Source: Hwanghaeella grinnelliae
GTDB lineage: Bacteria; Pseudomonadota; Alphaproteobacteria; UBA8366; Aestuariispiraceae
Direction: 5' to 3'
NCBI RefSeq assembly: GCF_004005845.1
Contig: NZ_SADE01000001.1
Coordinates: forward strand, 806,001-870,000
DNA length: 64,000 nucleotides
Numbering within the stretch: position 1 is the stretch's first letter; each line of letters opens with the position of its first letter. This document shows positions 55,829-64,000 of this stretch, piece after piece. The position numbers were made by a program, and so were the translations under genes. The notes below the pieces were generated by a model that had not been told where the DNA came from, searched no databases, and saw only the letters and a list, made by a program, of their open reading frames with translations.

Positions 55829-56539
55829 GTGCGGCGTCGCCATATCGGAAAGAATGCGAGTAAATCGGTGAACAAGAAAAGCAGTCCGAACAAAGGGTCG
55901 AGAACGGGCCGGGCAGGACGTTCTCAAGCAGCCAACAGCGAAACCCGCGCCGAGGCTCTGATTACTGTTGCCTTCGATCTGTTCGCCGAACGTAATTTCG
56001 CTTCGGTTACGATCAAGGATATCGCCAATGCGGCGGGCGTGAACACGGCACTGATCTATTATTATTACGACAATAAGGAAGGTCTTTTCCGCGCTACGCT
56101 GGAAAACGCGATTGGCGAAATTTTTGCGGCCTTTGAAACGCTGGAAACCAACGTGAATGATCCTCCGCTTGTCATTGATGAATGGCTTAGGATTCACCAT
56201 GCACAGTTCTCCACCGTGCAAAAGTTCGTAAAGGTTTGCTTGGACTATAAGGGGGCCGCGGATTCCGACCCCGTGATCGATGCCGCTATCGTGTCCTTCT
56301 ACGAGAAGGAACGGCGGCTACTGGCCGACGCGATCCGTGACGGTATCGAGATTGGTCTGTTTCGTAAGGTTGATCCGGTTGAGTTGGCCGATCAAATCTC
56401 GACCCATTTGGACGGCATCATGGTGCGGGCGGTTATTGTGTCCGGCTATGACCTGAAAGCCGGTATTTACGGCTTCTCCAAGATCGTTTGGGAAATCCTC
56501 GGATATACGCCCGAAGCGGCGTTTTCCGCCGCGGAATAG
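55829..56539 (+). CDS. TetR family transcriptional regulator
   Basis: A 236-residue regulator. The GTG at 55829 follows TAAGGAAC. After a basic, probably disordered 40-residue N-terminus comes the helix-turn-helix (AEALITVAFDLFAERNFASV and IKDIANAAGVNTALIYYYYD), then NKEGLF, typical of TetR. The C-terminal ligand domain runs from about residue 90. It lies directly upstream of glnT. A 21-base motif found before glnT and before the Rieske operon is its likely operator. Confidence 0.92.
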   Translation: MRRRHIGKNASKSVNKKSSPNKGSRTGRAGRSQAANSETRAEALITVAFDLFAERNFASVTIKDIANAAGVNTALIYYYYDNKEGLFRATLENAIGEIFAAFETLETNVNDPPLVIDEWLRIHHAQFSTVQKFVKVCLDYKGAADSDPVIDAAIVSFYEKERRLLADAIRDGIEIGLFRKVDPVELADQISTHLDGIMVRAVIVSGYDLKAGIYGFSKIVWEILGYTPEAAFSAAE

Positions 56540-56586: not shown

Positions 56587-56607
56587 TTAATTGACTGATT
56601 AATTAAT
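56587..56607 (+). promoter_or_regulatory. Shared AT-rich motif upstream of glnT
   Basis: TTAATTGACTGATTAATTAA plus T at 56587-56607 matches, in 18 of 21 positions, the reverse complement of 63241-63261 upstream of the Rieske operon. It lies 85 bases before the glnT start. Such conservation between two intergenic regions 6.6 kb apart suggests a common regulator, most simply the TetR protein encoded just upstream. Confidence 0.65.
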
Positions 56608-56691
56608 ATGCTCCATCGTTCAAAAAATGCCCGGAAATAGCGCTGTATAGCGTGTTCGTTCCGGCATTCTCGAAACTAGGTGGAGCTGTTG

Positions 56692-58110
56692 ATGAGTGCT
56701 GAAACGAATGCTGCAAGCATGGGTTCAGGCGATGCCGCCTTTGCCGCCGAGGCCAAGGCCGCATTGATCGATAAGGGCGTGAAATACTGTTTGCCTTTCT
56801 ATGTCGATGTAAACGGCGTACCCAAGACGAAGACCGTCCCGATCAACCATTTCGACCGTATGATGACGGGATCGGAATTGTTTACCGGCGCCGCGCTGGA
56901 AGGGCTCGGTCAAGGGCCGCAAGACGATGAGCTGGCCCTGCATCCGGATTCGTCGCATATCGTGCCTTTGCCATGGCGGCCGGAAGTTGCCCTGATTCCA
57001 GGAAACTTGAAATATCGGAACGATCCTTGGCCGATGTGTTCGCGAACCATCTTGAAGCAACAGATGGAGCGCGCAGAAAAACTGGGTCTTACTTTCAACT
57101 TGGGTATCGAGTGCGAGGTCTACGTCGTTCGGCGCGACGATGCGGCGGAAAACGGTATCGCCCCCAACAAGGTTGAAGATGACATGGCCCGTGCCGCCTA
57201 TGATCTATCTTCGACTTTGCTGAATTTTGAGTTTCTGGACGAAGTCGTCAGTCACATGAATGCGATGGGCTGGGACGTCTACTCGTTCGACCATGAAGAC
57301 GCCAACGGCCAGTTCGAATTCGATTTTGCCTATGACAATGCAATCACGACTGCGGACAGATTTGTCATCTGGCGCCTGATGATGAAAGAGATCGCCCGCA
57401 AGCATGGCTGGGAAGCGACAATGATGCCCAAGCCCTTTGCGGATCGGACGGGTAGCGGTGCTCATTTCAATATGTCTATCGCGGACCTGGAAACCGGGCG
57501 CAATGTATCGGGTGATGACGCGGACCCGCGCGGATGCGGTCTTTCGAAGCGCGCCTATCAGTTTATCGCCGGGGTGAAAAAACATGCGCCGGCCATTGTG
57601 GCGACCACCTGCCCCACGGTGAACTCGTACAAGCGTTTGATCAAGACGGGCTCGATGACCGGTTACACCTGGGCACCGATCTTCATCTCCTACGGTGGAA
57701 ACAACAGAACGCACATGCTCCGTGTTCCGAAGCTTTCCGATACGCAAAAATCCACCGCGGGCGCGCGATGGGAATGCCGGGCGGTCGACACGTCGATGAA
57801 CCCATATCTGGCGGCGGCGATGATGCTGGCCGCAGGGCTGGAAGGTATCGAGCAGGAGATGGATCCGGGCGATCCCATAGCAGTCAATATGTATGAGTTG
57901 GATAACGCGGAATTGGACCGCATGGGCGTCAAACTCTTGCCGCGGACATTGCTGGAGTCGATTGAGGCTTTTGAGCGTGACCCGCTGGGTCGTGAAGTGA
58001 TGGGGGAAGACCTGTTCAAGTCCTATGTCGACATCAAGACGCAGGAATGGTGGGACTTCCACAACCATGTTTCGGCTTGGGAAGTCGATACCTACCTGAC
58101 CAAATTCTGA
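56692..58110 (+). CDS. glnT: Type III glutamine synthetase family protein (GlnT-like)
   Basis: A 472-residue ATP-dependent ligase starting at 56692 after AGGTGGAG. Metal and ATP motifs are GIECEVYVVRRDD near residue 140, EDANGQFEFDFAYDNAITTA near 200 and FADRTGSGAHFNMSIADLE near 248; RWECRAVDTSMNPYLAAAMM is near 362. This class includes GlnT and gamma-glutamylmethylamide synthetase, so the amine acceptor could be ammonia or methylamine. It sits between tetR and a D-2-hydroxyacid dehydrogenase, in a module with RidA, an amino acid transporter and a Rieske oxygenase. Confidence 0.87.
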   Translation: MSAETNAASMGSGDAAFAAEAKAALIDKGVKYCLPFYVDVNGVPKTKTVPINHFDRMMTGSELFTGAALEGLGQGPQDDELALHPDSSHIVPLPWRPEVALIPGNLKYRNDPWPMCSRTILKQQMERAEKLGLTFNLGIECEVYVVRRDDAAENGIAPNKVEDDMARAAYDLSSTLLNFEFLDEVVSHMNAMGWDVYSFDHEDANGQFEFDFAYDNAITTADRFVIWRLMMKEIARKHGWEATMMPKPFADRTGSGAHFNMSIADLETGRNVSGDDADPRGCGLSKRAYQFIAGVKKHAPAIVATTCPTVNSYKRLIKTGSMTGYTWAPIFISYGGNNRTHMLRVPKLSDTQKSTAGARWECRAVDTSMNPYLAAAMMLAAGLEGIEQEMDPGDPIAVNMYELDNAELDRMGVKLLPRTLLESIEAFERDPLGREVMGEDLFKSYVDIKTQEWWDFHNHVSAWEVDTYLTKF

Positions 58111-58175
58111 TGCCAGGCCCTTTATGTGCCGCGCCGGCAGGGCAACGACTGTTGCCGATTGCCGGCCGGTGCGGC

Positions 58176-59201
58176 TCAGTATTGAAGCGTCTGATCCACG
58201 ACGTTCTCCAGCGGGTTTCCGTCCGCGATGTTGCCCAGATTGCGCATCAGCAGATCCAACGTGCGCGGCGTATAGGCTTCCGCGTCGTCCGAGGAACAGT
58301 GGGGCGTCATAATAAGATTGGGCGCGTTCCACAGACTGGAGGATTCCGGCAGAGGTTCGGGGTCGAACACGTCTAGAACCGCCGTGATCTCGCCACGCCG
58401 CAACTTCGCTTCCAATGCGTCGTAGTCGACCAGCGCGGCGCGGCTGTAATTTACCAATCCGGCACCTGGTTTGAACAAGTCTAGTTCAGCCTTACCCAAC
58501 ATATGATGGGAGGTTTCGGTGTGTGGGGCCGTCATCAGCACGACATCGGCGCGCGGGATCAAGTCGGCAAGGGCATCCGGCTTGTGCATTTCGTCCACAT
58601 TCTCACGCGGTTCGCCGGTTCGGCGTATGCCGATGACATGCATCCCGAAGTTTTTGGCAAAGCCCGAAACAGAACCGCCGACATTACCGACGCCGATGAT
58701 CAAAAGGGTCTTTCCTTCGATTGCGGTATTGAACAACTGTTCCCATCGAGCCTGACGCTGATTGGTCATCATTTCCGGGATTCGATTGTTGATCATCAAA
58801 ATGGCCATCATCGCATATTCAGCCGCGCGACTGCCGTGGACGCCGCGGCTGTTGATCAGGTTGACGTCGGGTGGCAGCCAGTCGAAGGGCCGCAGATGGC
58901 TGACACCGGCACCGTGAACATGAACGAACCGCAAATTCGGCGCGCGTTGGGCCAATGCCTCCCTTGGGACGTCCCAACAGAAAAGGGCGTCGGCACGCTG
59001 AAGTCCTGCTTCCAGATCCGCCGGGCTGCCGCTGAAAGTCGCGTCCACCCGTGCCGCGATATCAGGATGCCGGTCCAGGGCTTCCTGCCATCTCTGCTCG
59101 CTCACTTCGAACACCGGGCCAAGGGCATCCGGGTTGTGGACGTGCACCTTGACTTTTTCATTCGGCGCCATGGGTTTTGCAGCGTCGGTCTGTGTTGGCA
59201 T
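58176..59201 (-). CDS. D-2-hydroxyacid dehydrogenase family protein
   Basis: A 341-residue NAD(P)-dependent enzyme. KTLLIIGVGNVGGSVSGFAK near residue 160 is the dinucleotide site. The substrate Arg is in VNYSRAALVDYDALE near 245, the Glu in DVFDPEPLPESS and the catalytic His in IMTPHCSSDDAEA near 300. A roughly 20-residue N-terminal extension is present. It is 26 bases after the ridA stop... on the same strand in the order ABC genes, ridA, dehydrogenase, so it likely belongs to the Rieske operon. Confidence 0.9.
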   Translation of the reverse strand: MPTQTDAAKPMAPNEKVKVHVHNPDALGPVFEVSEQRWQEALDRHPDIAARVDATFSGSPADLEAGLQRADALFCWDVPREALAQRAPNLRFVHVHGAGVSHLRPFDWLPPDVNLINSRGVHGSRAAEYAMMAILMINNRIPEMMTNQRQARWEQLFNTAIEGKTLLIIGVGNVGGSVSGFAKNFGMHVIGIRRTGEPRENVDEMHKPDALADLIPRADVVLMTAPHTETSHHMLGKAELDLFKPGAGLVNYSRAALVDYDALEAKLRRGEITAVLDVFDPEPLPESSSLWNAPNLIMTPHCSSDDAEAYTPRTLDLLMRNLGNIADGNPLENVVDQTLQY

Positions 59202-59227
59202 GATGGGACCTCGATACGTCAGTCAGT

Positions 59228-59635
59228 CTATGGGGTGTCTGCCCGGTACAGGCTTGCGACCGCTTCTATTTCGACCAGCATTTCCGGGTCCGAGAGTGGG
59301 GTTTGCACCGTGGTGCGAGCGGGCGGGTCGTTTGGGAACACGCGTGCGAATTCAGCATTCATCGCTTGGAAATCGCCCATATCCTTCAAGTACACATTGC
59401 ACTTCAGAACATCGTCAAGCGTTGCACCGGCGGTTTCCAGCACCGCCATGACGTTTGACAGGGTCTGGCGTGTTTGGGCCACGATATCGCCTACCCCAAC
59501 AAGGTTTCCGTCGGGTCCCCAGGAGACCTGCCCGGCGGTATACACAAGGCGGCCATCGGTTGCGCCGGGCGAATAGGGGAAGGTCGGACGGGGTTGAAAA
59601 CTGAGGGACGGGGGGCGGATTACAGTGCGCGGCAT
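59228..59635 (-). CDS. RidA family protein (enamine/imine deaminase)
   Basis: A 135-residue YjgF/RidA-type protein starting at 59635 after TTGGAGAAG. GRLVYTAGQVSWGPDGNLVG near residue 27, TRQTLSNVMAVLETAGATLD near 53 and VKCNVYLKDM-like DVLKCNVYLKDMGDF near 74 are typical. The conserved deaminase Arg appears in NDPPARTTVQTPLSDPEM near 103. It hydrolyses reactive enamines or imines released during amine catabolism, consistent with its place between the ABC importer and a 2-hydroxyacid dehydrogenase. Confidence 0.91.
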   Translation of the reverse strand: MPRTVIRPPSLSFQPRPTFPYSPGATDGRLVYTAGQVSWGPDGNLVGVGDIVAQTRQTLSNVMAVLETAGATLDDVLKCNVYLKDMGDFQAMNAEFARVFPNDPPARTTVQTPLSDPEMLVEIEAVASLYRADTP

Positions 59636-59702
59636 TGTCTTCTCCAAAAAATGGGTGGCGGGCCGTTCATGCCGGCCCGCCAACCGTTCTAGTTTCTATC
59701 CG

Positions 59703-60503
59703 TTAGTCAGCGATCAGGTCTTTCCACGGCGCATCATATTTGTAGGCGATTTCTTTCAGAACGCCCGACGCCTTCAGTTTGCCAAGCGCGGTGTCGACGA
59801 ACAGCTTCATCTGAATGTCGTTGCGGTTCATCGCCCATGCGATCTGGTTGACGTCGTAGACTTCGCCGCCCAATGCCGTTGTCAGGGTCGGCTGGGTTTC
59901 CAGCGCGTGGTTTGCAGCGCCCGCGCCGCTGATGGAAATCATCGCGCGTCCGGTGACGACTTCAAGCAGGGCGCCTTCTTCGGTTGGGACCACACGAAGC
60001 TGGGCTTCCGGTGCGACCTTCTTCACCCAATCCATCTGGCCGGTGCCCTGGGCGACGGCGATCATGGCGTCTGGGCTGTTCAGGTCTTCAACGGTCTTGA
60101 ACTTGGTTTCGCCTTCCTTGACGACAGCCTTATAACCTTCGTTGTAAATCGGCACGCTGAAGATGACGGCGGTCGCGCGTTTGATGGTTGCGAAGGTACT
60201 GGCGATCGACAGGTCCACTTGTCCGGCCTGCAGCGCACCGATGAAGCTTTGCCAGGTGTATTCCTGGAATTCGCACTCAACCTCGATGTCGTTGCAAATA
60301 TGTTGGATCGCATCGATGAAGACGCCCTTGTACTCGCCACTGCTGGGATCCTTGATGACGTCGTGATCATAAGGGACGACGCCGATACGGAAGGTTTTGC
60401 TTTCTACCACTTCCTCGATGTCACGGGCCGAAGCGGGTACCGCTACGGCAATTGCCATTGTTGCTGCCGCGGCTGCGGCGATCATACGCATGTGACTAAA
60501 CAT
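59703..60503 (-). CDS. Amino acid ABC transporter substrate-binding protein (family 3)
   Basis: A 266-residue periplasmic protein, ATG at 60503 after TAGGAGACC. The signal peptide MIAAAAAATMAIAVAVPASA is cleaved before RD. SBP_bac_3 features are KTFRIGVVPYDHDVIKDPSS, YTWQSFIGALQAGQVDLSIA near residue 83 and IAVAQGTGQMDWVKKVAPEA near 150. It should deliver a polar amino acid or amine compound to the permease and ATPase encoded upstream in the same operon. Confidence 0.93.
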   Translation of the reverse strand: MFSHMRMIAAAAAATMAIAVAVPASARDIEEVVESKTFRIGVVPYDHDVIKDPSSGEYKGVFIDAIQHICNDIEVECEFQEYTWQSFIGALQAGQVDLSIASTFATIKRATAVIFSVPIYNEGYKAVVKEGETKFKTVEDLNSPDAMIAVAQGTGQMDWVKKVAPEAQLRVVPTEEGALLEVVTGRAMISISGAGAANHALETQPTLTTALGGEVYDVNQIAWAMNRNDIQMKLFVDTALGKLKASGVLKEIAYKYDAPWKDLIAD

Positions 60504-60544
60504 AGACGGTCTCCTAAACGTGGGTTTGAACTGCACAAGAATCC

Positions 60545-61339
60545 TCAGGGGTTTATCGGTTCGTCTCCGCCGATTTCGTGATCGATTAGGGAAAGGAAGG
60601 CGCGGGTGCGCGCTTCGCGCGGCGTCTCCAGGACTTGTTTCGGCGGCCCTTGTTCAGCGATGACGCCCCCGTCCATGAAGATGACGCGGTCGGCGACCTT
60701 CTTGGCGAAGTCCATTTCATGCGTGACGACAATCATGGTCATCCCTTCCTCGGCCAGCTTGCGCATAACGCCGAGTACCTCGTTGACGAGTTCAGGGTCG
60801 AGCGAGGATGTCGCTTCGTCGAAAAGCATCACGCGTGGCTGCATTGCGAGTGCTCTGGCGATGCCGACACGTTGCTGTTGGCCCCCGGACAGACGCGGTG
60901 GATACGTATCGGCTTTTTCCGCGACACCGACCTTGTGCAAATTTTCCATGGCGAGTTTTTTGGCTTCGCTCTTGCTCATCCCCTTAACGATCGTCAGGGG
61001 GGCCATGACATTTTCCAGCGCCGACATGTGTGGCCATAGATTGAAGTTCTGGAAAACCATGCCGATCTTGCCCTGGACCTTACGCAGGGCGGCGCCGCGG
61101 ACCGGTACTTGCTTGCCGTTTTTCTCGAATTGGCCGAGCGCCTCACCTTCGACTTGAATGGTGCCGCGAAAGCCGGTTTCGAGAAATGCGATGCAGCGCA
61201 ACAGAGTGCTTTTGCCGGATCCCGATGGTCCTATTACGCATAGGACTTCGCCGGGGGTGACGTTGAAGCTGACGCCCTTCAGAACGTCGAGATCCCCAAA
61301 GCTCAGCTCCAGATGCTGAATCGAAAGCGCCGGGGTCAT
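60545..61339 (-). CDS. Polar amino acid ABC transporter ATP-binding protein
   Basis: A 264-residue GlnQ/HisP-type ATPase. Walker A is [13 protein letters not shown] near residue 37, Q-loop [12 protein letters not shown] near 94, signature [19 protein letters not shown] near 148, Walker [21 protein letters not shown] and switch [16 protein letters not shown] short insertion ([20 protein letters not shown]) occurs before the Q-loop. The start overlaps the permease stop by four bases, coupling the two. Confidence 0.95.
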
Positions 61340-61995
61340 CGTTTTGCCAACTTCAGTTCGACGCGGCGCGCGATAAACGCAACCGGATAGATGATGATGA
61401 AGTAGACGATTGCCAGTGCCGTATAGAGCTCCAGTGGGCGGAATGTGTTCATGATTGTGTTGTTCACCGAATGCATGAGTTCATAGACGCCGATCACCGA
61501 GGCCAGGGACGAGAGTTTCACGAGATCGGCGATCATGTTGACCAAGGGTGGCAGGACCCGGCGGAAGGCTTGCGGCAGGATGATGCGCAGCATTGTCTGG
61601 GCGTATGTGAAGCCCAGAATGCGGGCGGCGTCGGTCTGGCCCTTGTCGATCGACGCGATGCCGGACCGGATGATTTCCGCGAAATAGGCCGAGAAGTGCA
61701 CGGCGAGGCTGATCGCTGCGGCCCAGAAGGCCGTGAAACTCGCCCCCGTCAGAACGGGAAGGCAGTAGAAGATCCAGAAGATTTGTACCAGCAACGGTGT
61801 GTTGCGCAGGAATTCCACATAGATCGACGCAAGGATCGCGAAAGGTTTTGGAGCGCTTTGCCGGGTTAATGCGACGATGAGGCCGATGAGGATGGCGAAA
61901 ACAGCGCCAATTGCGCTTAGCGACAAGGCTGTTTCGGCGCCGTTTATGTATACGGCACGGTAATCCCAGACAATTCCAAAATTCCAGTTATACAT
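61336..61995 (-). CDS. Amino acid ABC transporter permease (HisM/GlnP type)
   Basis: A 219-residue inner-membrane protein with about five helices. The HEQRO-type region is visible: [20 protein letters not shown] near residue 62 and [12 protein letters not shown]-like [20 protein letters not shown] near 108, followed by the EAA loop [20 protein letters not shown]. It is the only permease gene, so it probably works as a homodimer. It overlaps the Rieske gene stop by one base and the ATPase start by four. Confidence 0.94.
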
Positions 61996-63143
61996 CAGGC
62001 CGCCTTTGATTTGGTGTCGAGAACCCGGTCAAGGACCCAGTTGTCGAGTGCGTGAACAATTGGTTCTTGTATGCAGAACCGGCCTGGACCATTGAGGCTG
62101 GAGCGAAGGCCTGCCTGTTGCTCTTCGGAAATATCGTTGTCTTCTTTCAACGATTTTACCCAACGCTTGTTGTAGCGCGGCAGTATCTCGTTGAAGTCGT
62201 TGCGGGCGGCGGTTTCCTTGGGAAAACATACCCCATGGACAATCTCGCTACGGCCTGCGGTTTCGGGCAATGCCTGAAGCCACCACATGCAATCCTGGGT
62301 GCAAGCGAAGAAGGTGTTCGGATAAAGTACCGTGAAATACGTTCCTTCCGCCGGGCGCCCTTCCAGCGTGGAAATGAAAGGGAAGGGCGTTGTATCGCCG
62401 GGTAGGATGGCGATCGTATCCGCACAGGGCATGAAGATGGCGTCCCAATCGCCTATCGCGTCTTCGCGGAACGTTTTCTGGGTGCCTATGGATTTTCGGT
62501 GGACTGTCGCCGTGTGGTAATCCTCCATCGCATTTTCGATGTAGATCTTCCAGTTACAGGCTAGGTCGTAGGTGGTGCGTTGGACGCAGACGAGGTCCTC
62601 GTAGGAATAGGATGAAAAGACCGTCGGCAGGTTGCCCAACTGATCCTTCAATGGCGGCGGGTCGGTCGAAAAGTGTACGAAGAGGAAACCGGCCCAGGTA
62701 TCGACGGAGAGAGGAACCAAAGGATAGTCGGCGAGGTCGAAGCCGATCGTGTCTTCCATTCCCGGCGCGCCGCGCAGGGTGCCATCCAGATCATATGTCC
62801 AACCGTGATAGGGGCAGGTTATCGCGCGTTTCTTGCCTGTGCCGCAGACCAGCCGCGCGCCTCTGTGGCGGCAACTGTTTGCGAAGGCCCGCAGTCCGCC
62901 CTCCTTGTCTCGAACAACGAAGATCGGTTCGCCGCAGATATTGATGCTGAGGTAGCTGCCAGGATCCGGAACCTCATCGGCTCGACCGGCGAAATTCCAC
63001 ATGCGTTGGAAGATTGTCGAAACTTCACCCTGAAGAAATTCTTCGGAAGTGTAGCACCAAGGTGGCAGGGTTTCCGCTTCCAGAAGCGGCTGGCGGACCC
63101 GTTCGTATAGTTTCGGGTCGAACAGATTGTTTTGTTCAGACAT
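61995..63143 (-). CDS. Rieske oxygenase alpha subunit (GbcA-like demethylase type)
   Basis: A 382-residue non-heme iron oxygenase. Rieske ligands are in ANSCRHRGARLVCG near residue 90 and TCPYHGWTYDLDG near 110. The catalytic domain has WKIYIENAMEDYHTATVHRK near residue 200, supplying the bridging Asp and facial-triad His residues. Its length and layout resemble alpha subunits that demethylate glycine betaine or stachydrine-type substrates. It heads a five-gene operon with an amino acid importer, RidA and a dehydrogenase. No reductase gene is adjacent. Confidence 0.92.
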   Translation of the reverse strand: MSEQNNLFDPKLYERVRQPLLEAETLPPWCYTSEEFLQGEVSTIFQRMWNFAGRADEVPDPGSYLSINICGEPIFVVRDKEGGLRAFANSCRHRGARLVCGTGKKRAITCPYHGWTYDLDGTLRGAPGMEDTIGFDLADYPLVPLSVDTWAGFLFVHFSTDPPPLKDQLGNLPTVFSSYSYEDLVCVQRTTYDLACNWKIYIENAMEDYHTATVHRKSIGTQKTFREDAIGDWDAIFMPCADTIAILPGDTTPFPFISTLEGRPAEGTYFTVLYPNTFFACTQDCMWWLQALPETAGRSEIVHGVCFPKETAARNDFNEILPRYNKRWVKSLKEDNDISEEQQAGLRSSLNGPGRFCIQEPIVHALDNWVLDRVLDTKSKAA

Positions 63144-63611
63144 GCGGGTCCCCCTCGGATAGCCTCACTGTCCATACCGCACTGCACGATTTTTTGCGGC
63201 ACTGCACAAAACCGTATCGGAACTATTAAATCGTGACAACATTAATTAATCGATCAATTAGTTTGTGAGTATGGATAAAGCAGGTGTTCTGGGGCGGGGG
63301 CGGCTGTTTCAAGAAGTTGTTTTGCACAGCGAAAGGATGCGTTCGCGGGCCGCGCATGTGTCATTCATCTCGACTGGATTGTCACATTTTATTTGTGGCG
63401 TTAAGGCCCACTTCGCCGAAGGTTCCCGTCGCGCAAGGATTAGAAAAAGGTTTGCAACCGAAGTGTCGTTTCGTACCCTCATTCGAAACGGAAGGTGCGG
63501 GTCCAACCGCCCGTGCCGTAAACCGAGGTGACCTGGAGTAACCGGGCGTCCATAAAAAAACGAATGTGAAACTGGCCGGGTGGCGGCCAAGTGATCAGGG
63601 AAGAGAAACAC
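63144..63611. other. Gene-free divergent region with shared operator motif
   Basis: This 468-base gap lies between the leftward Rieske operon and the rightward binding-protein gene. It contains the 21-base motif at 63241-63261 and a small TGGCCG-N5-CGGCCA dyad near 63572-63588. A run of A's near 63555 and GGGAAGAG just before 63612 belong to the downstream gene's leader. The short open frames in it resemble no family. Confidence 0.55.
63241..63261 (-). promoter_or_regulatory. Shared AT-rich motif upstream of the Rieske operon
   Basis: Read on the minus strand, CTAATTGATCGATTAATTAA plus T matches 56587-56607 in 18 of 21 positions. It lies 98 bases before the Rieske start, in the same orientation relative to its gene as the glnT copy. 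It contains the exact palindrome ATTAATTAAT and a TTGATCGA core. Confidence 0.65.
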
Positions 63612-64000
63612 ATGCTGAAAACGATTGTAGGGGCGGGAACCGCCCTGGCGTTGATGTTGGGTGTCGGCGTCATGAGTGCTGACAAAGCCCAGGCCAAGGT
63701 GGAAGGCGACACGATTGTGTTGGGATCCGCCATCTCCTTCACAGGGAAATATTCCACGAACGGTATCCACGCCAAGAACGGTTATGACTTGGCGGTCAAG
63801 AAGATCAACGAAGCCGGCGGCGTTAATATCGGGGATAAGAACTACAAGCTGGAAGTTCGGTATTACGACGATGAGTCGACCCCGGCGCGTACCGCACAGC
63901 TGCTTGAACGTTTGATCCAGCAGGACGGTATTCAATACATCCTCGGCCCATACAGCTCGGCGACCACTAAGGCTGCCGCGCCGGTGACCGAAAAGTATCA
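63612..64000 (+). CDS. Branched-chain-type ABC transporter substrate-binding protein (3' end outside window)
   Basis: The first 129 codons of a periplasmic binding protein; the frame is still open at the window end. The ATG at 63612 follows GGGAAGAGAAA. A signal peptide (IVGAGTALALMLGVGVMSAD, cleavage near AQA-KV) precedes TIVLGSAISFTGKYSTNG and GYDLAVKKINEAGGVNIGDK, the usual opening of Peripla_BP_6/LivJ-type proteins. RLIQQDGIQYILGPYSSATT continues the fold. It is divergent from the Rieske operon; permease and ATPase genes probably follow outside. Confidence 0.92.
   Translation, partial: MLKTIVGAGTALALMLGVGVMSADKAQAKVEGDTIVLGSAISFTGKYSTNGIHAKNGYDLAVKKINEAGGVNIGDKNYKLEVRYYDDESTPARTAQLLERLIQQDGIQYILGPYSSATTKAAAPVTEKY

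Follow-up and report, generated by a model that had tools for sequence, protein, structure and literature searches.

A rare inverted repeat, predicted to be a TetR-family operator, connects glnT with a Rieske/ABC operon in Hwanghaeella grinnelliae

Why should the same short intergenic sequence stand ahead of two separate sets of genes, and which protein would read it there? This question is raised by a stretch of 64,000 nucleotides of the alphaproteobacterium Hwanghaeella grinnelliae (assembly GCF_004005845.1, contig NZ_SADE01000001.1, positions 806,001 to 870,000; hereafter the window), where one copy of a 20-bp element lies between a tetR-family gene and glnT, and a second copy precedes an operon that begins with a Rieske oxygenase gene and includes components of an ATP-binding cassette (ABC) transporter. 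The initial annotation proposed that both promoters form one regulon. The analysis supports this proposal: the element accompanies relatives of this TetR, precedes homologues of GlnT, Rieske and ABC genes, and is missing at all 28 GlnT or Rieske loci scored from genomes lacking the regulator. The adjacent TetR very probably acts, as judged from comparisons at the sequence level, through predicted operators at glnT and at the Rieske/ABC operon. The elements concerned are the following:

56587-56606, predicted operator 1, an imperfect inverted repeat TTAATTGACTGATTAATTAA, that is TTAATTGA-CTGA-TTAATTAA, between tetR and glnT
63242-63261, predicted operator 2, minus-strand sequence CTAATTGATCGATTAATTAA, that is CTAATTGA-TCGA-TTAATTAA, between the Rieske gene and the Liv-type ABC operon that diverges from it
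55829-56539, plus strand, tetR-family regulator of 236 amino acids (GTG start assumed), proposed to bind both operators
56692-58110, plus strand, glnT, type III glutamate-ammonia ligase family (TIGR03105, 543 bits, cut-off 469.6), proposed target 1
61995-63143, minus strand, Rieske oxygenase alpha subunit (Pfam Rieske and Ring_hydroxyl_A), first gene of proposed target operon 2

The 21-mer at 56587-56607, TTAATTGACTGATTAATTAAT, and the reverse complement of 63241-63261, CTAATTGATCGATTAATTAAT, share 18 of 21 bases, exactly as had been claimed. The consensus of the element, TTAATTGAYYGATTAATTAA, is a 20-bp interrupted inverted repeat, in which, of the inner 10 base pairs, copy 1 has 7 symmetric and copy 2 has 8. 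Such an imperfect dyad has the size of a dyad-symmetric TetR operator (about 15-25 bp), and its symmetry fits recognition by a dimeric helix-turn-helix protein. The similar distances to both genes also hold, with 84 bases intervening between the site end at 56607 and the glnT ATG at 56692, and 97 between the Rieske start at 63143 and position 63241 (85 and 98 in the initial annotation), and tetR does end directly ahead of one copy (56539, 47 bases before it). The shared orientation is as described, but it carries little information, since each copy is an imperfect dyad.

The element is rare. At up to 3 mismatches the window returned these two sites and no third copy, while 100 dinucleotide shuffles of it gave a mean of 0.00 copies and a largest count of 0. 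In the organism's own genome (5,323,771 bases in 7 contigs, with a completeness of 97.85% by the tool's figure), TAATTGANNGATTAATTAAT had two exact matches, the glnT and the Rieske sites, and its 3-mismatch matches were the Rieske site on the opposite strand and one unrelated place (C1:2180526; G, C and L numbers are our handles for genomes, contigs and loci). The palindromic pattern TTAATTRAYYGATYAATTAA at up to 3 mismatches found only the two sites, on both strands each. A reversed control of this pattern gave 2+2 matches as well, three of the four being the glnT site, whose self-similarity lets it match out of register; the fourth falls somewhere outside the window. No other good copy was thus returned by the scan of 5.32 Mb, and the many random copies in AT-rich gaps that the initial annotation had named as the finding that would undo its proposal did not appear in the genome, palindrome or shuffle searches.

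The regulator itself carries a TetR N-terminal helix-turn-helix domain (Pfam TetR_N, PF00440, 55.9 bits, cut-off 24) and a C-terminal domain of the TetR_C_6/BetI type (PF13977, 29.8 bits, cut-off 27). All 17 NCBIfam families listed for it score below their cut-offs, so that neither a BetI identity (TIGR03384, the best match, 47 versus 201.3 bits) nor a RutR one (NF011584, 31.4 versus 230; TIGR03613, 28.7 versus 368) was retained, and the closest solved TetR structures are generic and added no identity. Its relatives are uncommon. They were found in 6 of 385 genomes of the class, the own genome included, at E<=1e-20, in three more among 398 genomes of the phylum at 1e-25, and in one betaproteobacterial metagenome-assembled genome (MAG, L005), in a search that also gave a short match in Actinomadura; the class and phylum searches took no more than 7 candidates from each genome for scoring, so that absences in them are not absolute. 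The other 42 genomes of the same order held none at E<=1e-30, and footprints were therefore taken from other families. The relatives accompanied by the element are 35-50% identical to this TetR and spread across families and into a betaproteobacterium.

A homologue of GlnT is linked to a TetR relative at six foreign loci (G121, G271, G346, G362, G754 and the MAG), which were scored with a symmetric matrix of 24 columns trained solely on the two window sites. Five of the six contain a strong site (score above 20): G121 reached 38.6, 33.4 and 30.9, G271 24.7 and 22.6, G362 30.9, the MAG 26.3 and G754 22.2, whereas no shuffled locus (20 first-order Markov shuffles each) scored above 14.2. Operator and regulator are thereby conserved together. 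The sites of G121 fall in the tetR-glnT gap, in the allG-tetR gap (the longest allG frame extends just as far as the site) and between a gene for a flavin mononucleotide (FMN) reductase of flavodoxin fold and a carboxymuconolactone-decarboxylase-like gene. In G271 one site separates tetR from allG-glnT and the other the Rieske gene from an NMT1-type ABC operon; the MAG site is ahead of NMT1-glnT, and that of G754 in the tetR-glnT gap. In G362, where FMN reductase, glnT, a creatininase-family gene and tetR follow one another on one strand, the site is 45 bases ahead of the FMN-reductase gene and about 0.7 kb from the glnT start, and it is identical, letter for letter, to the 20-mer of window operator 1. 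The two FMN reductases beside the operator (G121, L018 7088-7810; G362, L023 5147-5791) are 51% identical in differing arrangements, and this gene is likely a further member of the regulon, perhaps a redox partner. Genes of the AllG family (oxamate carbamoyltransferase subunit) adjoin tetR/glnT in three foreign genomes (L018 8339-9619, L020 15879-17126 and L022 1097-2395), and in two of the three the gap beside them holds a strong operator. In G121, G271 and G754, where a site precedes tetR, autoregulation is plausible.

No such site was seen at TetR relatives without a linked GlnT in the DNA examined (G377, G498, G502 and three of four plasmid loci). The four plasmid records hold relatives of 32-37% identity, and the three that were scored (one from Salipiger, two from Pseudomonas) had no matching operator, with a best score of 9.1. 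The Pseudomonas relatives (L060 and L062, 32% identical) precede HypB/HypA-agmatinase/arginase-family genes, which resemble guanidine-hydrolase clusters and are again a setting of nitrogen-compound catabolism.

Does the element follow the regulator or the enzymes? Homologues of both enzymes are commoner than the TetR: Rieske homologues occur in 22 of 385 genomes at 1e-75 (52 matches), and GlnT homologues in 15 of 327 at 1e-130. Outside the own genome 35 loci were scored. For Rieske, the top match was taken from 19 of the 21 foreign genomes that have one, which covers 19 of 51 foreign matches; for GlnT, all 14 foreign matches were used, along with two loci from the same order. Not one of the 28 loci from TetR-negative genomes had a site (highest score 1.7), whereas four of the seven from TetR-positive genomes scored above 20, namely the Rieske and GlnT loci of G121 and of G271 (P 6.7e-4). 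The element follows the regulator and not the enzymes, because all 28 TetR-negative target loci are without it, and this control rules out an operator that tracks its target genes. Searches that started from the operator agree. Of 385 class genomes, 3 contain the exact core TAATTGAYYGATTAATTA, namely the own one (2 copies), G121 and G362, and all belong to the six TetR-positive genomes (Fisher P 2.1e-6; excluding the own genome, 1.4e-4); matches with one mismatch were found in 17 of the 379 TetR-negative genomes, none of them exact.

In this line, the pattern TTAATTRAYYGATTAATTAA was searched at up to 3 mismatches in eleven genomes. It gave an extra site in G121 on contig C82 (3 mismatches; matrix score 28.6, shuffle maximum 12.9), placed between a Rieske homologue, 47% identical to the window's and 62% to that of G346, and a divergent Liv-type ABC operon, while the tetR-glnT pair of this genome is on another contig, C53. 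This site reproduces the layout of the window's second promoter and was found without protein bait. The Liv-type binding proteins of the window and G121 are only 24% identical. The pattern matched twice in G271, both times in the tetR-allG-glnT/Rieske-NMT1 cluster, and once each in G362 and G754, at the cluster. Several matches were not counted as part of the regulon: those of G184 (one at 2 mismatches, L059/L066, among unrelated genes, and two at 3), a 3-mismatch match on C90 of G346, ahead of a glutamine-amidotransferase/SIS-domain (GlmS-like) gene, and another on C103 of G121, in a very AT-rich stretch.

A separate observation concerns the Rieske gene on C82 of G121 (L076 8951-9895), whose product matches Rieske homologues only over the first 292 of 314 residues, the last ones resembling by eye a 2-hydroxyacid dehydrogenase C-terminus. 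This suggests a deletion fusion of a Rieske-dehydrogenase pair, or an assembly error.

A close-up view of seven promoters shows the element as a conserved island, with 20-mers that are 70-100% alike between flanks of 40 bases on each side that are 12-47% alike. Outward from the centre, 22 half-sites read RRTYAATTAA, with a nearly invariant AAT. TetRs with this operator carry N-[TSPQ]-ALI-[YF]-YY in the region of the recognition helix. The proteins of G498, G502 and Salipiger form a separate, well-supported clade with YHY in the helix; YYY is not exclusive, being present also in G377 and a Pseudomonas plasmid protein, where no site was seen. The gap beside tetR in G502 contains a different 20-bp palindrome, TATTAAACGGGCGTTTAATA (TATTAAACG-GG-CGTTTAATA; L057 10121-10144), of which G498 has an imperfect version (L058 9700-9723), and both of these sister-clade TetRs adjoin an ABC cluster. 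It is possible that operator and recognition helix (Tyr to His) co-evolved in this clade, a lead from a small sample.

Several results weigh against the proposed regulon. G346 possesses TetR, GlnT and Rieske, and its best score is 9.1, in the allG-glnT gap and inside its shuffle range (10.3); neither the Rieske gene of its cluster nor its other scored Rieske locus has a site. G377 has a tetR at a contig end and a Rieske locus, both devoid of sites, and one Rieske locus from each of these genomes, together with the G346 GlnT locus, make up the three TetR-positive loci that remain beside the four strong ones. In the 3-mismatch search of the eleven genomes, the 19 real matches stood against 13 from the reversed control; of these 13, 6 were the sites read out of register, and 7 were not located. 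Within the window no operator precedes tetR, so that autoregulation is not seen here, and a scan for consensus hexamers, uninformative as such, detected no sigma-70-like promoter at either operator.

How do other explanations fare with these data? The likeness of the two copies might be that of any AT-rich intergenic DNA: the motif is mostly A and T, it has the one-mismatch matches in 17 TetR-negative genomes mentioned above, and two of three such loci checked have a G+C content of 30 and 38% (the third, 56%). This is extremely improbable and is effectively ruled out by the genome, palindrome and shuffle searches, with no copies in shuffled windows and two per 5.3 Mb, both ahead of linked operons, in an element conserved across families and classes. 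The sites could also be true operators of another regulator, for instance one of nitrogen or oxygen status, with TetR merely a neighbour. Binding by TetR is a prediction and its own gene lacks a site in the window, both of which would suit this alternative; it is nevertheless improbable, given the site's absence from every TetR-negative GlnT/Rieske locus scored, the lack of the exact core in all 379 TetR-negative class genomes, and the sites in gaps adjoining tetR in G121, G271 and G754.

Harder to set aside, and still unlikely, is that TetR does use these operators but activates from them, or exerts dual control over the divergent pair of Rieske and Liv operons. The absence of promoter hexamers in the consensus scan, the position of the window sites about 85-100 bases from the starts and the location of other sites in divergent gaps would be compatible with such a role. 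On the other hand, most TetR-family proteins are repressors, and alphaproteobacterial promoters often differ from the consensus used in such scans. Repression, the default of the family, is accordingly the probable mode.

In the regulon that we favour, a TetR dimer would recognise the 20-bp interrupted inverted repeat at two places, the promoter of glnT and the stretch separating the Rieske/ABC operon from the divergent Liv-type ABC operon. Most likely a repressor, it would be freed by a nitrogenous substrate or an early pathway intermediate, and its release would switch on together ABC uptake, oxidative attack by the Rieske enzyme, joined by RidA and a 2-hydroxyacid dehydrogenase, and the ATP-dependent gamma-glutamylation carried out by GlnT. 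The copy at 63241 may also serve the divergent Liv-type operon, giving three units. The remaining genes of the locus are:

58176-59201, minus strand, D-2-hydroxyacid dehydrogenase (Pfam 2-Hacid_dh_C), final gene of the Rieske run; a homologue adjoins Rieske in G346
59228-59635, minus strand, RidA-family protein (Pfam Ribonuc_L-PSP)
59703-60536, minus strand, amino-acid-type periplasmic binding protein of solute-binding protein (SBP) family 3 (Pfam SBP_bac_3)
60545-61339, minus strand, polar amino-acid-type ABC transporter ATPase (NCBIfam EhuA, 314 bits, below the cut-off of 345.4)
61336-61995, minus strand, polar amino-acid-type ABC permease (Pfam BPD_transp_1; TIGR01726)
63615-64000, running past the window, plus strand, start of the divergent LivJ-type ABC operon (family-level match only), perhaps a third target, lying about 350 bases from operator 2

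The rest of the Liv-type operon, read on L017, consists of the full binding-protein gene followed by permease and ATPase genes. None of the window genes examined was an AllG gene.

What would such a regulon be for? The nearest solved structure to GlnT is the glutamate-methylamine ligase 9qur, followed by 7cql, which was taken as RhGmaS from its residue numbering. On this numbering, which assumes a 20-residue offset of chain 7cql, D200, E209 and R339 of GlnT align with RhGmaS Asp177, Glu186 and Arg312, whose catalytic roles are described in PMC7948447. In addition, FTGAA replaces FDGSS and TWAP is found in the flap loop, with Thr and Trp at the positions of the ammonium-binding Asp50' and the flap Glu of glutamine synthetase. 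The GmaS residues being kept and the ammonium-site Asp and Glu replaced, GlnT probably glutamylates an amine rather than ammonium. It looks like a gamma-glutamyl-amine ligase, for which methylamine or equally another amine could be the substrate. Outside the window, the genome encodes a second GlnT-like protein (G000:C1:2289712-2291058, L016), 48% identical, and the 4.3 kb of sequence covered there contain no copy of the operator.

The Rieske protein is nearest in structure to carnitine monooxygenase 6y9c (E 4.7e-37), and its best NCBIfam match, GbcA, was rejected as an identity (160.2 versus 670 bits). The gene set suggests catabolism of an N-alkylated nitrogen compound. Homarine and carnitine pathways were considered as leads and set aside, a limited literature search having given nothing that ties either to the cluster. 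A more complete picture, possible but offered as tentative, is that the operator marks out a pathway, not described so far, acting on a nitrogen compound that is N-alkylated or quaternary. The Rieske enzyme, perhaps supplied by the flavin reductase whose gene has the same operator in G121 and G362, would cleave a C-N bond, the GmaS-like ligase would capture the released amine as a gamma-glutamylamide, and the AllG-like, RidA-like and 2-hydroxyacid-dehydrogenase enzymes would process the rest; the sister clade of TetRs would have switched to TATTAAACG-GG-CGTTTAATA with the change from Tyr to His in the recognition helix.

Four known systems come closest. BetI, the choline-responsive TetR-family repressor, shares the TetR fold and the BetI-type C-terminal domain and is the best NCBIfam match of this regulator, and control of quaternary-ammonium metabolism would be a further parallel; the present protein falls far below the BetI cut-off, and its proposed targets are GlnT, Rieske and ABC genes. 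Regulators of the RutR and AcuR types likewise have the TetR N-terminal domain and a role as local regulators of a catabolic set including a RidA-type gene, but this TetR reaches 31.4 and 30.1 bits against their cut-offs of 230 and 247. The RutR box is TTGACYANNTGGTCAA, from which the operator differs. With the GmaS pathway the locus shares a GlnT that keeps the RhGmaS-aligned residues, with Thr and Trp at the ammonium site; it differs in having no N-methylglutamate synthase or dehydrogenase among the neighbouring genes profiled and in the apparent co-regulation of Rieske and ABC genes. The likeness to carnitine monooxygenase CntA and glycine betaine monooxygenase GbcA lies in the Rieske protein itself, and the differences in its score, 160 bits against a GbcA cut-off of 670, and in the operon, which as read contains no gene for a reductase partner. 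In Acinetobacter baumannii, a LysR-type regulator activates the carnitine cluster (PMC11353897). A limited literature search, which is not proof of absence, found no description of a TetR/GlnT/Rieske regulon or of a TetR operator for GmaS, nor any papers on AllG with oxamate carbamoyltransferase.

The regulon is apparently a new one of a known kind, and the genes that it would control form a set apparently undescribed so far. Its analysis provides a predicted operator and a regulator for genes that occur together repeatedly in Alphaproteobacteria and in at least one betaproteobacterium, and for which no assigned substrate was found. Rare and rich in information, the operator serves as a search tool that finds pathway genes lying apart from the regulator, as it did in G121; since targets can sit on other contigs, operator scans would therefore reveal missing members of the pathway. 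An inducer-responsive reporter built on this operator could, in turn, name the substrate of the Rieske/GlnT pathway.

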